Shown here piece after piece: positions 9,234-33,657 of a DNA stretch of 34,590 nt. A program made the translations under genes and the position numbers. Origin of the DNA: Bacteroidota bacterium (GTDB taxonomy: Bacteria > Bacteroidota > Bacteroidia > Bacteroidales > UBA4417). The notes beneath the pieces were generated by a model that saw nothing but the letters and a program-made list of their open reading frames with translations, was not told where the DNA came from and did not search any database. The stretch is taken from the NCBI GenBank assembly GCA_020048595.1, contig JAIFMH010000002.1:1-34590 (forward strand). Direction: 5' to 3'. Positions within the stretch are counted from its first letter, which is position 1. Every line of letters begins with the position of its first letter.

Positions 9234-9248
9234 TTCACAGGAAGTTTT

Positions 9249-9291
9249 ATTCCCTGACTGATAACTATTTCGACTTTTTCAGTCAGGGAAT
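9249..9291 (+). other. Intergenic stem-loop between carboxylase subunit and biotin carrier genes
   Basis: Perfect 13-bp inverted repeat ATTCCCTGACTGA (9249-9261) / TCAGTCAGGGAAT (9279-9291), 17-nt loop, no following T tract. Confidence 0.8.
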
Positions 9292-9357
9292 TACACACTA
9301 ATGATACCGTAAATACAACTCTGCATTTTTCAATTGTTGTTCTTTTAAAAAACAATT

Positions 9358-30227: not shown

Positions 30228-30606
30228 ATGTGCGTCTTTTTTCAGATGCGAGCTGCACAAATTTCGGCTAACTCCCGTTACAGTGTTTCTTTCTTTCAGA
30301 CGTGAGGCAAACATTTACTATGGAATTAAAAATTCCATTCCTCGGTTAAGCGGGATTGCAAATCCCGCTCAGCAAGCAAATCCTGCTCAGCTAACAAATG
30401 CCAATCAGCACATAGATGTACTTCCCCCCGTTCGCATGCGTCTAATTAATGACGCCTGCGGCACAAATCCTGATCAACCAGGTTCGCGCGCGTCTTACTT
30501 TCTGACGCGTGCGGTTCGAAACTTATCGCGGAATTACAAATTCCTTATCTCGTTGGAGCGGGATTTAAAATCCCACTCAGCAAACAAATCCCGCTCAGTT
30601 AACAAA
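30228..30606. repeat. Cluster of composite palindromic (REP-like) repeats
   Basis: Two alignable 80-bp blocks (30319-30398 and 30527-30606, 208 bp apart), each with GGAATTA-n-AATTCC and AGCGGGATT-n-AATCCC hairpins plus CAAATCC(T/C)GCTCAG. They are interleaved with GCGTC...GACGC hairpins at about 30229-30256, 30433-30463 and 30485-30514, plus a decayed one at about 30283-30310. Confidence 0.85.
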
Positions 30607-30640: not shown

Positions 30641-30668
30641 AAAAAAAATCCCGCCTTTTCAGACGGGA
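30641..30668 (-). terminator. Terminator after tsf (minus strand)
   Basis: Minus strand TCCCGTC-TGAAAA-GGCGGGA followed by TTTTTTTT. Confidence 0.85.
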
Positions 30669-30693
30669 CATTTCAAAAAAAAAAATGATCTTA

Positions 30694-31530
30694 TTATGCT
30701 CCTAACTGTAAACGTTTGAATGACGTAACGGTAAGGTCCTTATCTGCTTTCTGCAGGTACTCGCGAATTGTAACTTTCGAATCGTTGATATATTCCTGGT
30801 TCAACAGTGTATTTTCCTTATAGAACTTGTTCAGTTTGCCCATGGCGATCTTCTCAAGCATTTCTTCAGCTTTACCCTCTTCACGTGCCTGGTCTTTACC
30901 TACTTCAATTTCGCGTGCAATAGTTTCTGCGTCAACACCGTCTTTGTCTAAAGCTACAGGAGCCATAGCTGCAATCTGCATAGCTACATGCTTTGATACA
31001 TCTTCAATACCAGCTACATCGGTTTTATTCAAACCAAGAATTGCAGCCAAACGATTACCAAAATGGTTGTAAGCAACTGCTAAAGGAGCTTCAACAAATT
31101 CGTAGTGCGAAAGTTGCATTTTTTCACCGGTTTTACCGGTAAGATAAGTAACACCATCAGCAACGGTTGCACCGTCAATGCTCAAAGCCAGAAGAACTTC
31201 GAGTGATGCGGGTTTTGCACTGATAGTGAGATCAATAATTTTGTTTGCATAATCAATAAACTCCTGATTTTTTGCAACAAAGTCAGTTTCGCAGTTCAGC
31301 ATTATAATTGAAGCGAATTTTTTATCTTCGGTAGTTTTAGCAACTACAAAACCTTGGTTTGCATCGCGGTCAGCGCGTTTAAGAGCCAGCTTTTGTCCTT
31401 TTTTACGTAAAGTATCAATTGCCTTTTCGAAATCACCTTCTGATTCCACTAATGCATTTTTACAATCCATCATTCCGGCACCGGTCATCTGGCGCAGTTT
31501 ATTTACCTCTGATGCTGTGATATTAGCCAT
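30694..31530 (-). CDS. tsf: Translation elongation factor Ts
   Basis: VNKLRQMTGAGMMDCKNALVESEGDFEKAIDTLRKKG; CETDFVAKNQEF; VAMQIAAMAP. Confidence 0.97.
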   Translation of the reverse strand: MANITASEVNKLRQMTGAGMMDCKNALVESEGDFEKAIDTLRKKGQKLALKRADRDANQGFVVAKTTEDKKFASIIMLNCETDFVAKNQEFIDYANKIIDLTISAKPASLEVLLALSIDGATVADGVTYLTGKTGEKMQLSHYEFVEAPLAVAYNHFGNRLAAILGLNKTDVAGIEDVSKHVAMQIAAMAPVALDKDGVDAETIAREIEVGKDQAREEGKAEEMLEKIAMGKLNKFYKENTLLNQEYINDSKVTIREYLQKADKDLTVTSFKRLQLGA

Positions 31531-31554: not shown

Positions 31555-31602
31555 TTAACCGTTGTAATTACATAAACCTGCACGGTTAAGCACAGGTTTA
31601 TG
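31555..31602 (-). ncRNA. Candidate H-type pseudoknot / structured 5' leader of tsf
   Basis: Minus-strand RNA: stem 1 CAUAAACCUG (31602-31593) with CAGGUUUAUG (31580-31571), 10 bp. Loop segment UUAACCGU (31589-31582) is complementary to downstream ACGGUUAA (31562-31555), 8 bp. Confidence 0.45.
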
Positions 31603-31626
31603 AGTACAATAAATTTTTTTCAGTAA

Positions 31627-32529
31627 TTATGGTCTTGGTTTGCGAGCTGCACCAGGTGCAGGTTTGCGTGCAATAGGTTTGCGTGGACGTTTGCGATCGT
31701 CACCATCAGCTGGTTCGAGACCTGCAGCAACACGTTTTTTACGTGCAACTTCACGTGCATCGTCATCGTCATCATCGCTTATTCTGCTAGTTGTGTGCTC
31801 TTCGCCTTCTTCACCTTCTTCTTCACGTTTATCACGATCCAGTTTACGCTCGCTGCTACCTTCGTCAATAGCTTCAATCATTTTTTTGATGATCAGTGCG
31901 ATTGATTTTGAAGCATCGTCGTTAGCCGGGATAGGGAAATCAACCAGGTTAGGATCGCTGTTGGTATCAACTATAGCGAATGTAGGTATGTTGAGTTTGC
32001 GTGCTTCAGCAATGGCAATGTGTTCTTTCATGATATCAACCACGAAAATAGCCGAAGGAAGTTTGTTAAGATCGGCGATTGAACCTAAGTTCTTTTCGAG
32101 TTTAGCACGTTCACGGGTAATCTGCAGACGCTCACGTTTCGAAATACCAAGGAATGCAGGGCTAACCATCAATTTGTCGATTGACGACATTTTTTTAACC
32201 GCTTTGCGGATTGTAGCGAAGTTGGTAAGCATTCCGCCCGGCCAACGCTCAGTTACATAAGGCATATTGGTTGGGCGTACCAGCTCGGCAACCAACTCTT
32301 TAGCCTGTTTTTTAGTAGCTACGAATAGGATACGTTTTCCTGATTTCGAAATTTGTTTGATAGCTGCAGCAGCTTCATCGATTTTAGCAATGGTTTTGTA
32401 AAGATCGATGATATGGATTCCGTTGCGTTCCATAAAGATATACGGAGCCATATTAGGATTCCATTTACGACGGAGGTGGCCAAAATGCGCGCCAGCGTCG
32501 AGTAACTCGTCAAATGTTGTTCTTGCCAT
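31627..32529 (-). CDS. rpsB: 30S ribosomal protein S2 with long charged C-terminal extension
   Basis: LLDAGAHFGHLRRKWNPNMAPYIFMERNGIHIIDL, ERWPGGMLTNFATI, VVDIMKEHIAIAEARKLNIPTFAIVDTNSDPNLVDFPIPANDDA; tail EEEGEEGEE...DDDDDD...RKRPRKPIARKPAPGAARKPRP. Confidence 0.96.
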   Translation of the reverse strand: MARTTFDELLDAGAHFGHLRRKWNPNMAPYIFMERNGIHIIDLYKTIAKIDEAAAAIKQISKSGKRILFVATKKQAKELVAELVRPTNMPYVTERWPGGMLTNFATIRKAVKKMSSIDKLMVSPAFLGISKRERLQITRERAKLEKNLGSIADLNKLPSAIFVVDIMKEHIAIAEARKLNIPTFAIVDTNSDPNLVDFPIPANDDASKSIALIIKKMIEAIDEGSSERKLDRDKREEEGEEGEEHTTSRISDDDDDDAREVARKKRVAAGLEPADGDDRKRPRKPIARKPAPGAARKPRP

Positions 32530-32574
32530 TTAATTTATCTCCTGATTTAATTAGTTTACATTCTTTAATGTCGC

Positions 32575-32618
32575 AATTGCCAGGTAGCCCGGTATGTAAT
32601 ACAGGAGTCCTGGCAATT
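32575..32618 (-). ncRNA. Candidate structured leader between rpsI and rpsB
   Basis: Perfect 10-bp outer stem AATTGCCAGG (32575-32584) / CCTGGCAATT (32609-32618). On the RNA strand the loop refolds as CCUGUAU-UAC-AUACCGG with one mismatch. Confidence 0.5.
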
Positions 32619-32647
32619 TAGATACTAAACTTCCTTCATTTTCAATA

Positions 32648-33034
32648 TTAACGCTTGCTGAACTGGAAGCGTTTACGTGCTTTCTTCTGACCGAATTTTT
32701 TACGTTCAACCATACGTGGATCGCGACGCATCAGGCCTTCAGCCTTCAGTGCAGGACGACGTGTTGGGTCGAGTTCGCAAAGTATACGTGAAATACCAAG
32801 CCTCAGTGCTTCAGCCTGGCCTTTAACGCCACCGCCTCCGAGGTTAGCAGTTACATCGAAAGTTCCAACAGTAGCTGAAATTTCGAATGCCTGCAAAACA
32901 GTATTCTGTAAAATTGCGGTTGGGAAATATTCTTTATAGTCACGTCCGTTAACAGTGATTACACCGGTACCTTCTTTGATGTAAACACGTGCAACAGCAC
33001 ATTTACGCCTACCAATAGCATTCGTAGTCTCCAT
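32648..33034 (-). CDS. rpsI: 30S ribosomal protein S9
   Basis: [33 protein letters not shown] ... [26 protein letters not shown]. Confidence 0.97.
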
Positions 33035-33039
33035 TTTGC

Positions 33040-33495
33040 TTATTTAATTTCGTTAATGTTAATCTTTTTTGGCTGCTGTGCTTCGTGTGTATGCTCAGCA
33101 CCGGCAAACACGCGCAGGTTGCGGAATAACTCAGCACCAAGTTTGGTTTTAGGAAGCATACCACGTACCGCTTCTTCAACTACGTATGTAGGTTTCTTAT
33201 TCAACATGATCCTTGGTGTGTTCACTTTCTGACCACCTGGATGTCCGGAATAATGTACATACTCTTTTTCGTTCATTTTCTTACCGGTCAGACGAATCTT
33301 TTCGGCATTGATAATGATGACATTGTCACCACAATCCAAATGAGGAGTATAGTTGGTTTTCGTTTTACCGCGCAAAATCCTGGCAACTTGTGTTGCCATA
33401 CGGCCCAGAATTTCGTTTTCGGCATCTACCAAAACCCATTCCTTTTTAATATCGGCGGCTTTTGGAGTGACTGATTTGTAACTTAATGTATTCAT
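33040..33495 (-). CDS. rplM: 50S ribosomal protein L13
   Basis: [57 protein letters not shown]; preferred start ATG 33495 ([12 protein letters not shown]) rather than track start 33522. Confidence 0.96.
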
Positions 33496-33551
33496 CGTCC
33501 TGAGTAATATGCTGTTAATCAAATAATCCCTGATTGGTATAAAAAGGGGTG

Positions 33552-33581
33552 CAAAGGTATTATTATAATTTGAAATTCCAA
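33552..33581 (-). promoter_or_regulatory. Promoter of the rplM operon: TTG-N19-TACCTTTG
   Basis: Minus strand TTG (33581-33579), 19-bp spacer, TACCTTTG (33559-33552); matches the Bacteroidota sigma-ABfr pattern. Confidence 0.7.
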
Positions 33582-33657
33582 AGACTTATTCACAATATTT
33601 TGTTGATTACTTTTCAGTATCCACGAAAGTGTCCTGGAGATGGCAAATATGAGGGTG

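Follow-up and report, generated by a model that had tools for sequence, protein, structure and literature searches.

In E. coli and S. aureus, a hairpin at the junction between rpsB and tsf sets the ratio of the two transcripts: in E. coli it is an attenuator passed by roughly a third of transcripts (PMC2834685), and in S. aureus a terminator with read-through (PMC4608709). In E. coli, S2 is also known to exert feedback on the rpsB-tsf operon (PMC10931766). Eckert et al. (2020, PMC7247131) list an L13 r-leader of Bacteroidia for operons of the form rplM-rpsI(-rpsB). We found no Bacteroidota counterpart of the hairpin analysed here described in Rfam or in the literature searched.

The stretch of DNA that we analysed (34,590 nucleotides; hereafter the window) comes from an incomplete Bacteroidales metagenome-assembled genome of an uncultured genus, and contains an rplM-rpsI-rpsB-tsf operon with the following features:

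30648-30669, minus strand: intrinsic terminator 3' of tsf, a 9-bp stem followed by T7
30694-31530, minus strand: tsf (EF-Ts), an open reading frame of 278 aa with its ATG at 31530
31562-31609, minus strand: intercistronic hairpin, with an outer helix UGUA(AU)/(AU)UACA, a 2-nt bulge, a 13-bp stem CAUAAACCUGUGC/GUGCAGGUUUAUG and a loop of 5-6 nt
31627-32529, minus strand: rpsB (S2), an open reading frame of 300 aa with a long charged C-terminal tail
32554-32630, minus strand: rpsB leader RNA GUUUAGUAUCUAAAUUGCC..GGCAAUUG..AGAAUGUAAAC, between rpsI and rpsB, a likely uS2 operator, from an alignment of 47 sequences
32648-33034, minus strand: rpsI (S9), an open reading frame
33040-33522, minus strand: rplM (L13), an open reading frame and the first gene of the operon

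The TTG start listed for rplM may lie 5' of the real ATG. Upstream of rplM, positions 33552-33582 on the minus strand hold TTTG, 19 nt and TACCTTTG, which we take to be a match to the Bacteroidota promoter pattern. For tsf, which has matches in 58 of 60 relatives, promoter-like sites occurred at chance level and none above it, and we dropped the reading of a separate tsf promoter.

The window resembles E. coli in having a strong hairpin between rpsB and tsf on a shared transcript (PMC2834685; L158). However, the E. coli hairpin (GGGGGCC..GGCCCCC) runs into T5 and its spacer is 257 nt long, whereas the window has no T-run and a spacer of 96 nt. The position of the hairpin and its presumed effect on the rpsB:tsf ratio are likewise shared with S. 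aureus (PMC4608709), but S. aureus has a Rho-independent terminator together with a tsf promoter, and the window shows neither. A scan for an intrinsic (Rho-independent) terminator at the hairpin was negative, and we observed no U-tract in any of the ten species that carry it; a terminator on the antisense strand was also rejected, the opposite strand having no consistent T-run. The window hairpin is a clade-specific case of a known kind of element, the intercistronic rpsB-tsf hairpin, and since it has no U-tract, it is unlikely to work in exactly the manner of E. coli or S. aureus.

A sequence-only reading of the window had proposed for this region a candidate H-type pseudoknot, or alternatively a pair of mutually exclusive hairpins, that would act on tsf. 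Its letters and coordinates are right: both complementary segments lie within 31555-31602, with the minus strand as the tsf-sense strand, and the second ends 24 nt ahead of the tsf ATG. On the minus strand the order is CATAAACCTG (31602-31593), TGC, TTAACCGT (31589-31582), G, CAGGTTTATG (31580-31571), TAATTACA and ACGGTTAA (31562-31555), with stems of 10 bp (S1) and 8 bp (S2) and loops of 3, 1 and 8 nt, as had been described. The parts of that arrangement fare as follows in the comparison with relatives:

31571-31602, minus strand: S1, the first stem as noted earlier, 10 bp with a 12-nt loop, still paired in 99 of 100 cells
31582-31589, minus strand: 5' arm of S2, TTAACCGT, within the loop, present as such only in the window species and G003
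31555-31562, minus strand: 3' arm of S2, ACGGTTAA, matching 8 nt of the loop in the window species alone

The earlier reading was right that the spacer contains an RNA element, and its first stem is conserved and under selection. We aligned the hairpin from ten species of the genus, the window included, which are the homologous cases among 14 genomes having the spacer. Across the alignment, 19 pairs were kept in 95.3% of cells and four pairs had changed on both sides, and the covariation score was attained by 0 of 500 shuffles; S1 includes a U-A to C-G change in four species. RNAalifold independently returned essentially the same hairpin, plus a closing pair found in U-A, C-G and G-U versions. 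Read on the tsf-sense strand, 17 cells of the main stem are G-U and none is A-C, indicating that selection acts on the tsf-sense RNA strand and not on a DNA palindrome. Divergence was 0.13 in the stem, 0.22 in the linker, 0.25 in the outer helix and 0.52 in the loop, with four-fold synonymous sites of tsf (0.46) as the reference. Several species have flaws in the outer helix, where 8 of 70 cells are unpaired and two more are A-C. Spacers of all 14 genus genomes that have one fold well below shuffles (z of -3.6 to -7.8), with z = -3.9 for the simple fold of the window species that includes the cap and outer helix. We conclude that the element is a simple bulged RNA hairpin, read from the tsf-sense strand and selected for pairing.

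The second stem behaves differently. In the window species the geometry is perfect: the 10/8 H-type arrangement is a single case across both strands of the window and occurred in 0 of 30 first-order shuffles, and when the loop was compared with the 25 bases that follow it, 0 of 1000 shuffles gave a match as long as 8 nt. The match exceeds what composition predicts for one site, although the earlier reader scanned many sites. By contrast, loop/downstream complementarity in the nine relatives amounts to only 2-5 nt, S2 pairing was observed in 59.7% of cells as against a shuffled mean of 61.4%, and the 5' arm lies in the loop, which diverges like synonymous sites. The first base of the 3' arm covaries with the outer helix instead, and the 8-nt connecting loop is paired within that conserved helix, and hence is not free to span a pseudoknot. 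Three further cap pairs (UGC/GUG) and the outer helix (UGUA/UACA), which the simple hairpin forms and the sequence-only reading overlooked, would have to be broken for the pseudoknot to form. For the window species, the predicted energy is -19.5 kcal/mol for the complete hairpin, cap and outer helix included, and -11.1 kcal/mol for S1 alone; with S2 stacking and the usual penalty, we estimate about -14 to -16 kcal/mol for the pseudoknot, which falls short of the hairpin. Since this estimate is the weaker and S2 is unconserved, the pseudoknot would be no more than a minor fold in a single species. We rejected it as a conserved feature, and a functional pseudoknot or switch between exclusive hairpins that regulates tsf is very improbable. 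On the comparative side what is left is only a simple hairpin, the outcome that the earlier reading had itself set against the pseudoknot, which gives way to a structure that can be tested.

We next consider where such hairpins occur. With a model of the window hairpin, each of the ten genomes gave a single strong match, always before tsf; the two other matches were weak, one of them in G008, overlapping and on the reverse strand (E 0.08), the other in G013 (E 0.9). Among 295 genomes of the order, with few members of the genus sampled and strict filters, the model (R1) matched the window only. Judged from these sequences, the hairpin is limited to one subclade of the genus. In four deeper congeners (L010-L013) the spacer contains hairpins that are unrelated to this one (z of -3.8 to -5.8). 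In the Bacteroidota sampled outside the genus, the spacer has a median length of 32 nt and is usually unstructured; hairpins reappear in it among Cyclobacteriaceae, where their tails are T-rich, and in a few other cases. The Cyclobacteriaceae-type set (L057, L059-L061, L063, L068, L070, L072, L075, L080, L081 and L088) shares a conserved ATTGAACAT..ATGTTCAAT-like hairpin. These hairpins occupy the same spacer as that of the window and also belong to Bacteroidota, but they differ from it in sequence, in their T-rich, terminator-like tail and in the absence of an rpsB leader upstream. Outside the genus, a spacer hairpin was present in 18 of 37 genomes without the rpsB leader versus 5 of 54 with it (Fisher P = 4e-5, relatedness ignored). 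The repeated origin of unrelated hairpins at the rpsB-tsf junction in several lineages suggests that separate expression of EF-Ts and S2 is often useful.

Processing, pausing and protein binding are all compatible with the sequence, and regulation of EF-Ts by the hairpin is something that we infer. The missing U-tract leads us to place a processing or stability stem first, attenuation second and a protein site third. We give about an even chance to the hairpin being intercistronic punctuation, a stem that would direct processing or block exonucleases; covariation, G-U pairs on the sense strand, the slowly changing stem, the unrelated hairpins of congeners, the single copy before tsf and the hairpins known at this junction in E. 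coli and S. aureus all point this way. With such a stem, the rpsB and tsf portions of the transcript would meet different fates, which would in turn tune the S2:EF-Ts ratio. The hairpin might instead attenuate or pause transcription so that only part of the transcripts would enter tsf. Precedents at this junction are the E. coli attenuator, passed by about one third of transcripts before tsf, the S. aureus terminator with its read-through, and the Cyclobacteriaceae relatives, where hairpins are followed by T-runs in the same spacer. Nevertheless, the bases that follow the hairpin in the ten species are mostly TAATTACA or CAATTACA and never a U-tract, and we consider attenuation rather unlikely.

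A protein, be it S2, EF-Ts or some other factor, could also bind the hairpin and so control the translation of tsf. The stem core AACCUGU..GGUUU is invariant across the ten species and the U-G pair of the cap is kept in nine of them, as might be expected of such a site, but pairing alone also predicts little change in the stem. Moreover, congeners carry unrelated hairpins, whereas the rpsB leader keeps a sequence core across Bacteroidota lineages. We therefore regard a protein site as improbable. Least credible of all is an element acting as DNA, either an inverted repeat recognised by a transcription factor or a dispersed repeat. The perfect 10-bp inverted repeat is there in the DNA; the G-U changes, however, fall on the tsf-sense strand only, promoter-like sites do not exceed chance, and there is one copy per genome without dispersal, on which ground a dispersed repeat was rejected.

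If the stem does act as punctuation, S2 feedback on rpsB and tsf would run through a separate and widespread element, the leader at 32554-32630, which is a stronger regulatory RNA than the spacer hairpin and is uncatalogued in Rfam. In its alignment of 47 sequences, 12 pairs have changes at both positions, which amounts to 144 cells versus 34.8 in shuffles. Pairing was intact in 97.9% of cells, a figure to which the outer helix contributes partly by construction, the first alignment having been selected by the outer GUUUA/GUAAAC ends, and to which the inner helices contribute free of that selection. The leader ends are GUUUAG[U/C]AUC..GAA[U/C]GUAAAC with variable stems between them, in several Bacteroidota lineages (L126-L157). 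In a sample of 297 genomes of the phylum, 32 matched the leader model (R2), each with one copy, and the match lay between rpsI and rpsB in 30 of 30 fetched loci and in three further congener loci. This position suggests that the leader is a candidate S2-binding feedback regulator.

A described element of similar kind is RF00127 (rpsB motif, t44), the uS2-binding leader of Proteobacteria, which like 32554-32630 is a structured RNA just 5' of rpsB. However, Rfam scans of the window and of six leader loci returned no relevant family, with RF00127 unmatched; conversely, the E. coli rpsB leader matches RF00127 and the E. coli region has no R2 match. The L13 r-leader (PMC7247131) belongs to the same operon (rplM, rpsI and sometimes rpsB) but is named for L13, whereas the window leader sits between rpsI and rpsB; our comparison of the two covers name, operon and position. 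The literature searched contained no description of a Bacteroidota rpsB leader or tsf hairpin, its relevant papers being those on E. coli, S. aureus, Pelagibacter and the L13 leader. We tentatively propose an operon with two RNAs, an uncatalogued class of S2-binding leader unrelated to the proteobacterial motif and a clade-specific hairpin that would uncouple EF-Ts from S2 feedback, although this combined picture stands somewhat short of an even chance. If the leader binds S2, Bacteroidota have their own S2 feedback RNA, which could be compared with the proteobacterial motif and with 16S rRNA.

We also made several minor observations. Four genomes (L027, L087, L092 and L101) have a variant leader upstream of rpsB with an extra GGCAGGCAGUUUAGU.. 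outer helix and a 3' end, UCUAAAC, that closes differently. One genome (G012), 97% complete by its listing, lacks both a tsf match and the rpsB leader, probably reflecting an assembly gap across the entire operon. Within the window, the region 3' of tsf at 30420-30530 contains several inverted repeats with GCGTC, and the GGGACGCA..TGCGTCCC hairpin before tsf in L010 and L012 may be related to them. Lastly, positions 9234-9357 on the plus strand hold a perfect 13-bp hairpin, ATTCCCTGACTGA..TCAGTCAGGGAAT, which lies between co-directional open reading frames and is not followed by a T-run.
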